From: Waterburya agarophytonicola KI4
GTDB lineage: Bacteria; Cyanobacteriota; Cyanobacteriia; Cyanobacteriales; Xenococcaceae
Direction of reading: 5' to 3'
Assembly: GCF_020640915.1 (NCBI RefSeq)
Contig: NZ_JADWDC010000009.1
Location: forward strand, 1-64,000
Length of the DNA stretch: 64,000 nt
Shown here in pieces: positions 3,100-31,810 of the stretch (its first letter is position 1; every line of letters starts with the position of its first letter). The notes beneath the pieces were generated by a model, which was not told the DNA's origin, searched no databases, and worked only from the letters and a program-made list of their open reading frames with translations. A program made the translations under genes and the position numbers.

Positions 3100-4437
3100 A
3101 TGAATCAAAATTATAACGATCTTATTGAACAAATCAGCAATCTTCTATTTGAAAAGATAGTAGAGGAAGAGCCAAATCTAGCTGAAAAAGTAAATCAAGT
3201 TGACACAGACTTATTATCATTGTTACGAGCCATTGGCTTGAGGGTGATGTCAATGTTATTAAGTTTGTTAGTTAATCAAGTTACAAGCCAAGTAAAACAA
3301 CCTGGTTGGATTATCCATAGAAGACCGAAAATTAAATATACAGTAATCTTTGGGCAGTTGAAAATAGAGTCACCCTATTTATGGAATAAAAAAAATCAAC
3401 AAGGAATTCGTCCTGTTACTGAAAAATTAGGAATTGCTCACGGAGATTACTCTATAGGAGTGAAACGAATCTTAACCGAGTTTGGAGCAGAAGAATCCTT
3501 TGAAGGAGCAGCCAAGAGGTTTCAAGAACATTACGGCTTTTGGGTTGAAAAAAATGCAGTTAGAAGAGAAGTCGAAGCGATCGCTAATTTAGGACAGCAA
3601 TATATTGAGCATCGCTTGGATAGTCTTAAACAGCAAGCCGACGACCATAAAAATCAAACCCAAAGTTTACCCAGACTGATAGTTGAATTGGATGGTTGTC
3701 AGATTCGCACAGGAGTCTATGGGTGTGCTCAAAAAGCAGAATTAACTCCGAAACGTCAGCTCATCCAAAAAGAGCGAACAATTAATTGGCGTGAAGTCAG
3801 AGTTGGATTTGCACGTCCAGTTGACGACCGCCAAAAGCGAACTTTTATCGCTCGAATGGACAAATATCCTGCTGTAGTAAAACAACTGGTAGGTGCAGCT
3901 ATTAATCAAGGGATGGGCAAAGAAACGGAAGTGACTGCCATTGCCGATGGAGGAAATGGTTTACGTGAGGCTCTTGAAGTGGGATTTCCTAATCTTAAAT
4001 TTATTCTCGACCGTATTCATCTCAAACAACATATTTATCAAACTGCTGATGCTCTCAGCTTAACTGGTATACATTGTCAAATTTGGACTAGCCATCTTCT
4101 GAGCCTGATTGACCGAGGAAAAGCTAAAAAAGCGATTAAATTCGTCAATCGTTATTTTCACAACAGTCCAGCACTGAACAAATTAGACAACCTGTCCCAA
4201 TATTTACAACGGTTTGCAGACGCTTGCCACTACGAGCTTTATAAAATCCAAGGATTACCAATCGGTTCTGGAGAAGTTGAAAGTGCCCATCGTTATATTC
4301 CTCAAAAGCGATTAAAAATTCCAGGAGCGACATGGCACCCCGATTCAATTAATCCCATGTTAGCTTTACGAGTTATCCGAGCCAATGAATGGTGGTCAGA
4401 CTTTTGGACTCATCTCATCGAGAAAAAGCTGGCTTGA
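3100..4437 (+). CDS. ISKra4-family transposase
   Basis: A DDE-type transposase of 445 residues that would cut and join the element ends. The N-terminal third is helical and probably binds DNA. The catalytic core shows VELDGCQIRTGVYG near residue 200, IADGGNGLREAL near 285, the following LDRIHLKQH, and the C-terminal SGEVESAHRYIPQKRLKIPGATW. The last is highly characteristic of ISKra4-type enzymes in cyanobacteria. Length and motifs indicate an intact, potentially active enzyme. It contains HIP1 sites like the surrounding chromosome, so it has probably circulated in HIP1-rich hosts for some time. Translation may be restrained by the hairpin touching its start codon. Family assignment is from recognised motifs and has not been checked against a database. 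Confidence 0.9.
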   Translation: MNQNYNDLIEQISNLLFEKIVEEEPNLAEKVNQVDTDLLSLLRAIGLRVMSMLLSLLVNQVTSQVKQPGWIIHRRPKIKYTVIFGQLKIESPYLWNKKNQQGIRPVTEKLGIAHGDYSIGVKRILTEFGAEESFEGAAKRFQEHYGFWVEKNAVRREVEAIANLGQQYIEHRLDSLKQQADDHKNQTQSLPRLIVELDGCQIRTGVYGCAQKAELTPKRQLIQKERTINWREVRVGFARPVDDRQKRTFIARMDKYPAVVKQLVGAAINQGMGKETEVTAIADGGNGLREALEVGFPNLKFILDRIHLKQHIYQTADALSLTGIHCQIWTSHLLSLIDRGKAKKAIKFVNRYFHNSPALNKLDNLSQYLQRFADACHYELYKIQGLPIGSGEVESAHRYIPQKRLKIPGATWHPDSINPMLALRVIRANEWWSDFWTHLIEKKLA

Positions 4438-12668: not shown

Positions 12669-14447
12669 TTAAATAGTATCTACGTAAAAAGCAATTCCCC
12701 CATCTCCTTCCGCCACAAAATCTTCATTACTTAAATATCCGTCTCTCTCTGCTGGGGAAGTTGTGTAGAAATGGGTATCTAGTTCTGTATTATAAAAGCG
12801 ATAAAGTGGTTCGGTATCTTCTATTTGTTGTTTATAGGCATAAAAACCAATCCCTTCAAAATTATAATTCTTTAGTCCCAGAACAGCGTCTCTTTCTACT
12901 TCAGAAGGGGTATAAAGATGTTGACCTGTAGAAGTATTGAAGAAGCGATATATAGGATCTCCCGTCGCTTCATCTCCTCCCAAAAATGCTATACCTTGGG
13001 AACGGTATTGAGGTAGGTTGTTCACAATATAGTCTCGTTCAATAATAGATGGGGTATAGAATTGTCGGAAAGAAACGATATCCAAAAAGCCATATATTTC
13101 TCGGCGAGTTGGCACTTGGGAAGAAGTAATCGTAATTCGGGCTAAATCGTAGTTAGGCTGAGTAAAATCAGCATTGCTAAAATCTGCCGCATTTAAAATA
13201 CTCCCCTCTGGTTTAAACCCAGGATGGGGTGTAACTACTCTATTTTGATTTTCCCCTGTATTGGGAGTTGTTTGTCCAAAAAAAGCAGTATTGCTAGGTA
13301 ATTCGTCATTTATTTCTGTTCCTGCATCTAAAACATCCGAACCTTTAACAGTCAGATCTACGCCCAAAAAATTACCATTGCGATCGAATATTTCGTGAGC
13401 AATACCATTACCATTAGCAACGAAAGCATCATTGGAAGGTAAGATCATTGAGGCGTAATTAAAGTAACGACTAGAACTTTGAGAACGATCTAGGATTACT
13501 TTGTGGGTTACTGTCTCTTCAGTGTCTAAAATTCCAGGATCAGCCCCTTTATTTCCATTAATTGTTCCCTGGACGTAACCCCAATCTCCTAGTGAAAATT
13601 CATTTGCTAAGATGCTCGCATCACCATCTTCGGCTAAACTTTCTAAACCAGGAGATGCAGGACGATTAGGATCGTAAGTTTCGTATGTACCATCGCTAAA
13701 GCCATACCAAACAGGGGATAATAAAGTGCCGTTCTCTGGGGCTAAATTAGTCACAGTAATGGTTAACTCGACTAAATTGGGATTAGTAACTATTCCGCTA
13801 CCATCGTGTACGGTAAGTTTGGCAATTTCGCGATCGCTATCTACCAGATTTTCCGCACCAGGATAAAGACTCTCTAGTCTACCGCCGTTGATATATCCCG
13901 AACTTGGGCTGACTACCCCACCTTCTGACGTTCCTGTATTGGGTTGTTCTTGTCCTGCAAAAGCCGTACTGTTTTCATTTTCATCGTTAACTTCTGTTCC
14001 CGCATCCCATAAGCGATCGCCATAAATAATATATTCCCCAGAGTTTAAATTTCCCGTGTCATCAAATAAATCTATACTCCGAGAATCTTCGTTAGCAATA
14101 AAAATATCGTTGGAAGGGATAAACATCGAGGCATAGGATAAATACTGATGATTGGGATTTTCAGTATTTAATTCCAAACTGATTTGGGCAATTTCTCTTG
14201 GATCTATTACCGATGGAGTTCTATCTCCACCCACAATAAGGCGATCGATCCCAGACTGATAGTTGAATTCTTGGCTTAAAACTTCTGTATTACCATCTTC
14301 GGCTAATCTTTCTAAGCCAACCGAAGCGGGACGAAAGCGATCGAATAGGTCGAATCTACCATCGTGTACTCCAATCCAGGTAGGTGTTAGGAAAGTTCCT
14401 GCTTCAGTTGATAGATTCTCAATTGAAATATATACAGTTTCTGGCAT
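12669..14447 (-). CDS. Tandem Spondin_N domain protein with DUF5648-like C-terminus
   Basis: A 592-residue protein with two copies of a Spondin_N-like domain (about residues 4-190 and 205-415). Each contains a P-x-W-x-G-x-x-DG core, an RPAS-GLE-LAEDG segment, a YASM-(I/F)-(L/I)PS-ND-F-(I/V)AN strand, and an NTAF-GQ-PNTG closing segment. The last 140 residues hold at least two repeats of the pattern YRF(F/Y)NT-x-T-H-(L/F)YT-S-ERD, as in the DUF5648 repeat. Spondin_N proteins are usually extracellular, yet there is no Sec signal peptide here. The strongly acidic composition would be compatible with type I or another signal-less export route. The gene has its own terminator. A surface adhesive role is inference. 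Confidence 0.8.
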   Translation of the reverse strand: MPETVYISIENLSTEAGTFLTPTWIGVHDGRFDLFDRFRPASVGLERLAEDGNTEVLSQEFNYQSGIDRLIVGGDRTPSVIDPREIAQISLELNTENPNHQYLSYASMFIPSNDIFIANEDSRSIDLFDDTGNLNSGEYIIYGDRLWDAGTEVNDENENSTAFAGQEQPNTGTSEGGVVSPSSGYINGGRLESLYPGAENLVDSDREIAKLTVHDGSGIVTNPNLVELTITVTNLAPENGTLLSPVWYGFSDGTYETYDPNRPASPGLESLAEDGDASILANEFSLGDWGYVQGTINGNKGADPGILDTEETVTHKVILDRSQSSSRYFNYASMILPSNDAFVANGNGIAHEIFDRNGNFLGVDLTVKGSDVLDAGTEINDELPSNTAFFGQTTPNTGENQNRVVTPHPGFKPEGSILNAADFSNADFTQPNYDLARITITSSQVPTRREIYGFLDIVSFRQFYTPSIIERDYIVNNLPQYRSQGIAFLGGDEATGDPIYRFFNTSTGQHLYTPSEVERDAVLGLKNYNFEGIGFYAYKQQIEDTEPLYRFYNTELDTHFYTTSPAERDGYLSNEDFVAEGDGGIAFYVDTI

Positions 14448-28682: not shown

Positions 28683-29219
28683 ATGAAAATCAGATCGTTA
28701 GCAGTCATGCTTGCTGGATTAAGCGTTGTTCTTGGCAGCGCGATCGCAAATCCCGCCAAAGCACAAACCAAAAATAACAACACCTATTACTGCGCCCAAT
28801 TAGATGGCAACTGGAATACTTTTGTCAACACTCCCAGAGGTCGAGTAACTCTAATTAATTGGGCAAACAAGTTTTCCGAAACCTGGACTCCTCAAAAAAG
28901 ATGTTCGACTATATCCCAGCGTTTTCAAAATTTTCTCGACGATGGCAACCTAAAATTTATTCGTACGGGTGAAATCAACAAAATGCCCGTACTCTGCGTA
29001 GCTAACGCTCGTGGTGGTGCTTGTCCTGAAGATAACGTTCTCATTACTCTCAAACCAGGAACAGATCCTGAAGGGGTTTTGATCAGATTAGTCGATTTCC
29101 GTCGCAGCGTCAGCGGTCAAACTTTAACTCTAAGTGCTGATGATGCGGGCTTCTATTCTGGCGGGGAGTTTTATGTAGATATGGATAAATTTATCGAATC
29201 AGTCCCCGTAAATAACTAA
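28683..29219 (+). CDS. COP23 domain protein
   Basis: A 178-residue exported protein whose mature part matches the circadian oscillating polypeptide COP23 family: YYCAQLDGNWNTFVNTPRG near the start, then SETWTPQKRCSTISQRFQ and LCVANARGGAC. A signal peptide spans about 1-27 (cleavage near AKAQ). Four cysteines (38, 79, 102 and 109 approximately) are probably disulfide-bonded outside the cytoplasm. COP23 of Synechococcus RF-1 is a clock-regulated peripheral membrane protein of unknown function. A short inverted repeat GCTGAAT/ATTCAGC lies upstream near 28580. The neighbours are a protease and a repeat-built protein. Confidence 0.85.
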   Translation: MKIRSLAVMLAGLSVVLGSAIANPAKAQTKNNNTYYCAQLDGNWNTFVNTPRGRVTLINWANKFSETWTPQKRCSTISQRFQNFLDDGNLKFIRTGEINKMPVLCVANARGGACPEDNVLITLKPGTDPEGVLIRLVDFRRSVSGQTLTLSADDAGFYSGGEFYVDMDKFIESVPVNN

Positions 29220-29281: not shown

Positions 29282-30334
29282 ATGAAATGGCTACCCAGTA
29301 GAGGGTCACAAAAGCAAAATCAAGCAGGACAAACTGCTTCTGACAAAAACTTGCCCAAATCAATTCCCCTCGTCATTGGACTAACTTGTTTAATAAGTAC
29401 GGGGGCGTTTTTTTCCCTGAATAGATTTGGGCTAAAAAAGATTTTTGCCCTTAATTCTTTCCAAGAGTCATCTCCAGAAATCAAAGAAATTGCTGCGGAC
29501 ATAAGTATCAAAGTGTTGGATAAAGAGTTTTTAGGCTCTGGTTTTATAGTGCAGCAACAAGGGAATAAATATGTTGTGATTACTAACCAGCATGTCTTAA
29601 GGGCGGGAGAAGCACCCTACAACGTCCAAACCCCCGATGGAAAAATTCACTCTGCCGAAGTTATTTCTACTTTAGTTGAGAGCGATCGCAAATATGATTT
29701 AGCAGTTTTGCAATTTTCTGCTGATGTAAATTATCCCGTGGCAAAAATCGGTAGTTCGCTTTATTTGGAAGTGGGAGAGCCTATTTATGCTGCGGGTTTT
29801 CCTTATTCGGAAGTCGGAGTCAAAAATCCTGCGGAAAGAGACAGAGAAAATTCTCAAACCAACCCCTTAACAGGACTGGCTGTTAAAACAGGTAGAATAA
29901 CTATTATTTTAAATCAAGCTCTACTAGAAGGCTATCAAATAGGCTATACAAACGATGTCAAGAAGGGTATGAGTGGAGGAGCGTTGTTAAACAGTCAAGG
30001 GGAGGTTGTCGGGGTAAATGGTAAACACGCTTATCCTTTGTGGGAATCTCCAGAACTTTATCAAGATGGAACTCAACTTTGTTCGGCTTTAGAAAAATTG
30101 ATTACTCGCTCTAGTTTGGCTATTCCCATTGAAAAAACTATTGAGTTGAATCCTCAATTAAAATCTCTTAGACCATCTTCCAATATAAAAACAACTCCCA
30201 AATCCAATCTTGCAGCCGAAGATTCTAAAATAATTACCACAATGCAACAAGAAGCAGAATCACTTGTTAGAGACTGCCAAGAGCGTGGAATCAATTCTCT
30301 CGATCGCGAAGGCAAAATAGAAAACGAATTTTAA
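29282..30334 (+). CDS. Membrane-anchored trypsin-like serine protease
   Basis: A 350-residue protein with one N-terminal membrane segment (about 28-48), then a trypsin-like double-barrel domain expected outside the cytoplasm. The triad is visible: His104 in TNQHVL, Asp139 in KYDLAVLQ, Ser231 in KKGMSGGALL. The C-terminal tail (about 290-350) is Ser/Lys-rich and helical, and no PDZ domain is present, unlike HtrA/DegQ. It lies 62 bp after the COP23 gene and just before a small unknown gene, so it may be part of an envelope-related unit. Substrate unknown. Confidence 0.85.
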   Translation: MKWLPSRGSQKQNQAGQTASDKNLPKSIPLVIGLTCLISTGAFFSLNRFGLKKIFALNSFQESSPEIKEIAADISIKVLDKEFLGSGFIVQQQGNKYVVITNQHVLRAGEAPYNVQTPDGKIHSAEVISTLVESDRKYDLAVLQFSADVNYPVAKIGSSLYLEVGEPIYAAGFPYSEVGVKNPAERDRENSQTNPLTGLAVKTGRITIILNQALLEGYQIGYTNDVKKGMSGGALLNSQGEVVGVNGKHAYPLWESPELYQDGTQLCSALEKLITRSSLAIPIEKTIELNPQLKSLRPSSNIKTTPKSNLAAEDSKIITTMQQEAESLVRDCQERGINSLDREGKIENEF

Positions 30335-30352
30335 GAAATTTACTGTAGGTTG

Positions 30353-30646
30353 ATGCGAGTCAGAATAGAAGAAAATATTTTGTTGATTGCCCATGAAGAT
30401 TTACCACCCTATAAAAAAGGTGGTTCGGTAGTTCGAAATAGCTATTTTTGGGCTTTAAAATCCATAGCCTGTTTTACCTCTAGAAACAAAGATTGGGAGT
30501 ACGATCGAGAAGTGTGGGTTGCGCTGGCTAGAATGCTAGTCTCTTTTACCGAATCTGGATATTTAGGCGATCGCGAAACCAGCTTGGAGTTTTCCGCAGA
30601 TACTCCCATTCCTTCCCAATTACGTTCTGTTTCTAGCTATTTTTAA
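30353..30646 (+). CDS. Small protein of unknown function (97 aa)
   Basis: A 97-residue soluble protein, mixed charge, with a hydrophobic helix in the middle (REVWVALARMLVSF) and no signal peptide. I use ATG 30353, since the codon before it is a TTG at 30350. It follows the protease gene after 18 bp and is likely in the same transcript. No motif is recognised. Its position next to the protease suggests a regulator or partner, without direct evidence. Confidence 0.5.
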   Translation: MRVRIEENILLIAHEDLPPYKKGGSVVRNSYFWALKSIACFTSRNKDWEYDREVWVALARMLVSFTESGYLGDRETSLEFSADTPIPSQLRSVSSYF

Positions 30647-30772
30647 CTATTGCTACAATAGAGCAATCGAGGGAAACTTTAGATCGACATTACACCATCT
30701 TCATCTGCAAAAAATTAAACTAGAAGACATATAAGAAATTTTAGTCGATCGATTTTATAAAAGATTTATACT

Positions 30773-31810
30773 ATGTGGTTAATAGCAACAGGAATATTTC
30801 TTGGCACGCAGATTAATTTTCTCGAACCAGTTCAGTTAGATAGTGACTTCAATCTTCCCCAGAACAAGGTTCAAAGCGATCGCCTTGAGGGTTTGACAAT
30901 TACCGATAAAGAAGGAAATTATGCTCCCGATTTGATTTCTAGTTTTGCGATCGATCGGAACTTTGTTAGCTTGAGTCATGCTAATTTTTATAATTTTGAC
31001 GAACAATTAAGTTCTTTCCAGCCAGGAAAAACATCTTGGAAAACCGATACTACCGTAGGTTCTCTAAAATTTGATGGTAAGTTTAACGATCGCGCCCAAT
31101 TGACCGATGGAAAAGCTTTTTGGCAAACTAAAACCAAACTTGGTTCGGTAAATTTGGGTATCAACCTCAACGACGAGCTTAAACCCATCAAAAGCACTGC
31201 TGGATGGCAAACCGAGACATTTTTGGGTTCGTTCATCGTAGAAAGCAAATTTAACGAGGAAATTACCTTTTCTGGGGGAAATACCGCTTGGAAAGCTAAA
31301 ACAAAACTAGGAGAGATCGCAATCCAAGGAAATTTTAACGAAAAAACAACATTCACGGGAGGAAATGCAGCCTGGAAAGCCAAAACTAAGTTAGGCTCGT
31401 TGGCATTAAAAGGTAACTTCGATCGCCACACCGTATTTACAGGAGGTGATGTCACAATATCCACCAAGACTTTGATTGGTTCTTTAGTTGCCGATGTCAA
31501 ACTAGATGAAGCAACTAGATTTAGTGGAGGGAATGCTGCTTGGGATGCCAATCTCTTATTTGGTTCAAATATTGGCGTGAGTGGCAAATTCGACGAAAAC
31601 ACAACCTTTACTGGAGGTAGTCTCAAACTAGGTGCTAAGACTGCTCTAGGAACTTTGGGAGTCAAGGCTAACGTCGATGGCGAAACCACTTTCACTGGGG
31701 GGAGTGCTTTCTGGAAAGCTAAAACTGGATTGGGTTTAGTAGGTTTAGATGCCGATTTAGAAAAAGATGGCGAATTTGAATCTTCGATTAAATTAGAATT
31801 TCCTTTTTGA
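30773..31810 (+). CDS. Protein built of nine 28-residue repeats, beta-rich, unknown
   Basis: A 345-residue protein. Residues 1-80 are unique and begin with a short hydrophobic stretch (MWLIATGIFLG), which would be a weak signal peptide without the usual basic start. From residue 82 to the end it consists of tandem units of exactly 28 residues, starting at 82, 110, 138, 166, 194, 222, 250, then 279 (one residue longer) and 307, plus a closing stub. The consensus is F-T-G-G-N-A-A-W-K-A-K-T-K-L-G-S-L with strand-like alternation. The Gly at unit position 15 is present in all nine units, and the Trp at position 8 in most. The protein ends KLEFPF, with a terminal Phe like outer-membrane barrels. 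An outer-membrane or surface beta structure is inferred; no family is recognised. An in-frame stop 15 bases upstream fixes the start. Confidence 0.65.
   Translation: MWLIATGIFLGTQINFLEPVQLDSDFNLPQNKVQSDRLEGLTITDKEGNYAPDLISSFAIDRNFVSLSHANFYNFDEQLSSFQPGKTSWKTDTTVGSLKFDGKFNDRAQLTDGKAFWQTKTKLGSVNLGINLNDELKPIKSTAGWQTETFLGSFIVESKFNEEITFSGGNTAWKAKTKLGEIAIQGNFNEKTTFTGGNAAWKAKTKLGSLALKGNFDRHTVFTGGDVTISTKTLIGSLVADVKLDEATRFSGGNAAWDANLLFGSNIGVSGKFDENTTFTGGSLKLGAKTALGTLGVKANVDGETTFTGGSAFWKAKTGLGLVGLDADLEKDGEFESSIKLEFPF

Follow-up and report, generated by a model that had tools for sequence, protein, structure and literature searches.

The repeat-protein gene analyzed here, which is located in a 64,000-nucleotide stretch of Waterburya agarophytonicola KI4 DNA ("the window"), belongs to an undescribed protein family, the members of which add or drop whole 28-residue units through DNA duplication. 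The preferred reading of its product, to which a probability of about 0.5 is assigned, is that of an exported, lineage-restricted structural repeat protein with a β-solenoid array. The features of the gene and its product, with the evidence used where it applies, are the following:

30759..30772, + strand: weak ribosome-binding-like stretch AAAAGATTTATACT, directly 5' of the ATG (aligned start regions)
30773..31810, + strand: repeat-protein gene, 345 amino acids, ATG start, TGA stop (one-copy orthologues, dN/dS)
30776..30832, + strand: N-terminal hydrophobic stretch, residues 2-20, putative signal peptide or signal anchor that lacks a basic n-region
30833..31015, + strand: variable linker, residues 21-81, with a single alternating β-strand immediately ahead of unit 1 (alignment; pLDDT 21-46)
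31016..31099, + strand: unit 1, residues 82-109
31100..31183, + strand: unit 2, residues 110-137
31184..31267, + strand: unit 3, residues 138-165, the most degenerate one, without FTGG
31268..31351, + strand: unit 4, residues 166-193
31352..31435, + strand: unit 5, residues 194-221, closest to the consensus
31436..31519, + strand: unit 6, residues 222-249, Trp replaced by Ile
31520..31606, + strand: unit 7, residues 250-278, extra Asn after G15-S16
31607..31690, + strand: unit 8, residues 279-306, Trp replaced by Leu
31691..31774, + strand: unit 9, residues 307-334
31775..31807, + strand: C-terminal tail FESSIKLEFPF (family alignment; comparison with barrel ends of the same genome)

The coordinates, the reading frame, and the unit starts at residues 82, 110, 138, 166, 194, 222, 250, 279, and 307 had been given by an earlier, sequence-only reading of the DNA and were all correct, as were the LEFPF end and the single unit that is one residue longer, which is unit 7 with 29 residues. 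The same reading had called the repeats exact. This holds for their spacing and not for their sequence, since the units have diverged to a mean pairwise protein identity of 34% and a unit-to-unit DNA identity of 37-62% in the window gene. The 28-residue periodicity is nevertheless far above chance: the identity at lag 28 was 34.3% across the repeat region, compared to a maximum of 18.1% in 5000 shuffles at lags 10-99. Contrary to the description of every unit as FTGG-containing and Trp-led, F[ST]GG is confined to units 4-9, and Trp occupies unit position 8 in seven of the nine units; the Gly described as invariant is indeed present in all nine as Gly15, the sole position conserved to this degree.

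Translation from the indicated ATG is supported because AAGGA/GGAGA forms, which are better than the AAAAGATTTATACT of the window, occupy the spot in front of the ATG in some relatives. When the start regions of the relatives are aligned, their ATG codons coincide and are preceded by ribosome-binding-like bases and by in-frame stops; the window, too, has an in-frame stop 5 codons upstream of the ATG. An antisense ORF at 30988-31695 was judged to be mechanical. Rfam and promoter scans returned nothing of note, searches with the repeat protein in Pfam, NCBIfam, and PDB sequences gave no significant match, and no match was found in plasmid and phage records.

That the protein grew by duplication of its 28-residue unit had been proposed before, with the repeat number in relatives as a check. 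Segmentation of 14 relatives, among them L011 with an array truncated by the end of its contig, revealed 8 units in L012, 10 in L009 and L014, and 9 in most of the others. In L009, units 4 and 5 share 93% DNA identity and unit 6 is 85% identical to each of them; units 3 and 4 of L010 share 94%, and units 3-5 of L005 share 69-79%. Growth by unit duplication is demonstrated by these whole-step counts together with the 93-94% identical DNA copies. Gain and loss occurred mostly mid-array, in the zone of units 3-5, and orthology of the outer units is retained within the genus. Units 4-6 of L009 and units 3-4 of L010, with 85-94% DNA identity, arose recently by in-frame tandem duplication of 84 bases.

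Of 27 genomes from the same taxonomic family (order Pleurocapsales), 14 contain a one-copy orthologue with an open frame. These orthologues occurred in 11 of 13 genomes of the same genus, the two genomes without an orthologue having a completeness of only 81-82%, and in two other genera. A phylum-wide sample of 386 genomes yielded strong matches in the own genus only, and a scan of named genomes added matches in Myxosarcina, Pleurocapsa, Hyellaceae, and Pleurocapsales records. The repeat protein is thus essentially confined to one Pleurocapsales family among the genomes sampled. It is under purifying selection, since dN/dS was 0.35, 0.16, 0.20, and 0.30 in close pairs.

The repeat gene has no conserved neighbor. 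Its flanking genes vary among the relatives, so there is no operon to lean on. In the window, serS (named from sequence) is located 3' of the gene. Upstream, a 98-amino-acid ORF (30350-30646, + strand) without a Pfam match encodes an uncharacterized conserved cyanobacterial protein; it occurs in 40 of 60 relatives from many families with about 55-87% identity and is mostly unlinked to the repeat gene. Five relatives (L029, L032, L022, L023, and L024) differ from the window in that their repeat gene has a neighbor of opposite orientation, the product of which resembles an amino-acid-type solute-binding protein. Further upstream in the window are a gene for a COP23-type protein (28683-29219, + strand; PF14218, circadian oscillating protein) and next, at 29282, that of a trypsin-like protease (PF13365), the N terminus of which contains a hydrophobic stretch. 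More distant are a gene for a single chain with spondin-N-like (PF06468) and DUF5648 (PF18885) domains (12669-14447, - strand) and one for a UPF0236-family protein (3100-4437, + strand; PF06782) with a transposase-like look, possibly an insertion element.

The sequence-only reading had considered the lack of a good signal peptide a puzzle. The signal peptide of the window protein is indeed weak: the protein begins with MWLIATGIFLGTQINFLEPVQ, which is hydrophobic and contains neither a basic residue nor a clear cleavage site. The puzzle is eased, since some relatives bear ordinary signal peptides. By eye, L006, L007, and L008 start with MR..., followed by Lys and a hydrophobic core together with a VLA cleavage-like site, and L010 and L013 possess a plausible signal peptide with VSA-E. 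Together with the aligned start regions, this indicates that the family is probably Sec-exported, and the window member may carry a signal peptide that has degenerated or else a signal anchor.

For the fold, AlphaFold2 (AF2) models were built from six sequences only. The model of the whole chain reached a pLDDT of 53.6, and that of residues 81-345 a pLDDT of 68.7 with a pTM of 0.62, the best value in a wide spread of 39.5-68.7 over five models of this region. Both models contained a single, bent, continuous 19-residue strand per unit at about positions 5-23, plus a 2-5-residue strand near positions 27-1 in most of the gaps. The turn at unit positions 15-16 that a hairpin needs was absent from both, at moderate confidence. 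This prediction, which had been suggested as a check, thus returned solenoid-like units, the outcome named beforehand as speaking against a barrel, and the equation of one unit with one β-hairpin, itself an inference, found no support in it. Among the Foldseek matches listed, parallel β-helices and solenoids prevailed (P22 tailspike, SufBD, ice-binding protein, FapC, CsgA, and hemolysin A), and an outer-membrane porin was absent. Parallel strand pairing is suggested by the DSSP strings and these structural neighbors. The E-values in the PDB were 0.28 or worse, so no solved relative backs the solenoid fold, and matches in the viral library were weak, too.

Evaluation of these models needs to consider that AlphaFold2 gives confident but false β-solenoids for repeat sequences, which are marked by internal charge stacking (PMC11795689). 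Owing to this over-prediction, the models neither prove the solenoid fold nor fully refute a barrel. Internal stacked charges are absent from the window family, because the 13 inward positions 1, 4, 6, 8, 10, 12, 14, 15, 17, 19, 21, 23, and 27 were charged in no more than 2% of the cases in 121 units from 14 proteins. Among these positions, Phe1 and Thr27 show the inward pattern, although a hairpin model would put both into an exposed loop. At position 24, an Asp/Glu column, adjacent units formed 52 like-charge pairs versus 1 opposite pair, and such outer charges, if stacked, need a counter-ion or another fold. Covariation of adjacent units, which might separate stacked from antiparallel arrangements, gave no signal with ten sequences, a number without power. 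On balance, a stacked-coil rod looks more like the product of this gene than an outer-membrane pore does.

In the β-solenoid model, the N-terminal hydrophobic stretch would mediate passage across the plasma membrane by Sec, as judged from the relatives, and would be followed by the variable linker. Each 28-residue unit should form one coil, in which strand A (positions 5-14) would lead over a bend at the near-invariant Gly15-Ser16 into strand B (17-23), and a turn at Asp/Asn24-26, the short strand 27-1, and a Gly-Gly turn would complete the coil. Phe1, Ala6, Trp8, Ala/Thr10, Thr12, Leu14, Leu17, Val19, Gly21, and Phe23 would be stacked inside, and Lys, Asn, and Asp would face outward. Single coils would be gained or lost through mid-array tandem duplication of the DNA, so that the rod changes its length in single steps; such an open-ended array agrees with the 8, 9, and 10 units of the orthologues. 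The hydrophobic tail with its Pro-Phe/Leu end may cap the last coil or hold the protein at the outer membrane. In these colony-forming cyanobacteria, the protein may serve the cell envelope as a structural or surface component.

The alternative proposed by the sequence-only reading, an outer-membrane β-barrel grown by hairpin duplication with one hairpin per unit, is unlikely but retains several arguments. With Gly15-Ser16 as a two-residue periplasmic turn and DExxTFTGGN as a ten-residue outer loop, the 18 strands of the units, the strand that precedes them, and a tail strand would add up to about 20 strands, closed via the β-signal of the C-terminal Phe. A normal barrel hairpin is of the size of the 28-residue unit. 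The position pairs 14/17, 12/19, 10/21, and 8/23 suit a two-residue turn with one hydrophobic face; this hydrophobic parity cannot decide the matter, because a two-residue-turn hairpin and a bent solenoid coil have it in common. The C-terminal β-signal pattern, a terminal aromatic residue with hydrophobic residues at -3, -5, and -7, is present in FESSIKLEFPF, its Pro-[Phe/Leu] end is invariant in the family, and true outer-membrane barrels of the same genome end similarly with LEYFPF, VKPF, or RTTFTF. The C-terminal Phe therefore still fits a barrel, as do the signal peptides of some relatives.

Besides the missing turn and the absence of porins among the Foldseek matches listed, however, the composition disfavors the barrel: the repeat domain contains 0.1% Tyr and 4-11% Lys, compared to 1.6-3.8% Tyr and 0.6-2.8% Lys in 14 barrel domains of the own genome. 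Probabilities in hhalign comparisons of the repeat profile with OprB and Omp85 were 0.1-0.4%; the three-unit profile gave 0.1-0.2% for these two, compared to 21-33% for a β-helix adhesin stretch and for WG repeats, all below significance. Moreover, lipid contact would be made by Thr12 and Ala/Thr/Ser10, and every outer loop would contain Phe1 as a conserved aromatic residue. A barrel of specifically about 18-22 strands, with a hairpin number (8, 9, or 10) that is still changing among close relatives, is doubtful. If it were true, the family would be a live record of growth by duplication of single hairpins, the new ones being near-identical. The claim that this route is rarely visible in barrels was too strong, since 39% of prototypical barrels show recognizable internal hairpin repeats (PMC6340704) and a hairpin repeat signature exists in most outer-membrane barrel families (PMC6193526).

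Descent from a shortened WG repeat (PF14903), which would have lost about six residues and would form a β-meander as in WG arrays within a binding or scaffold domain, is improbable as an explanation of the protein. It draws on a gapless 22-residue match of GSLALKGNFNEKTTFTGGNAAW to the WG pattern GKIVIxxxFDEAxxFSEGLAxV and on WG proteins found in four genera with the family or unit profile. The hhalign score of 19.0 exceeded the maximum of 17.7 over 150 column shuffles; the probability was 33% with the three-unit profile (range, 17-33%), which is below significance. However, Pfam called PF14903 in none of 13 members, the KWGY core is missing, and the matches of the unit profile in the 386 genomes were at chance level, the match of the full-family profile being stronger. 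The WG similarity may serve as a lead to ancestry, not as a sign of membership.

A fibre- or amyloid-like protein of the extracellular matrix that would polymerize as a β-arch stack, like curli CsgA or FapC, is very improbable, since FapC and CsgA among the weak Foldseek neighbors and a domain rich in G, N, T, S, and A are opposed by diverged, non-identical units, a single copy per genome, and the lack of recognized secretion partner genes near the repeat gene.

Whatever the fold, gain and loss of whole β-units can be read in the DNA of this family at several ages, from 93-94% down to about 50% identity, and the relatives with 8, 9, and 10 units provide a small natural series on the growth of repeat proteins. 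Should the protein be a barrel, this series would bear directly on how pores widen.

Three known systems resemble the window family. WG_beta_rep (PF14903) shares F[ST]xGxA, an FD-to-F spacing of six residues, and the gapless G-strand-F segment with the window unit, which differs by its length of 28 against 34-35 residues, by the absence of the WG core, and by scores below Pfam and hhalign significance. Hairpin-amplified outer-membrane β-barrels such as PgaA (PMC6193526, PMC6340704) have in common with it the hairpin-sized unit, the C-terminal aromatic residue with alternating hydrophobic residues, and the likely export to the envelope; the window family differs in being modeled without hairpins, in its almost complete lack of Tyr and its high Lys content, and in having no profile similarity to OprB or Omp85. 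Parallel β-helix or β-solenoid proteins (tailspikes, ice-binding DUF3494, and the FHA/hemolysin A type) share the predicted array of one coil per unit with an inward hydrophobic ladder, the near-invariant bend Gly, and a composition poor in Tyr and rich in G, N, T, S, and A. Compared to these proteins, the window family has a mid-confidence model with Foldseek E-values of 0.28 or worse and no sequence relative in PDB or Pfam, and it is distinguished by its 28-residue unit and its Trp ladder.
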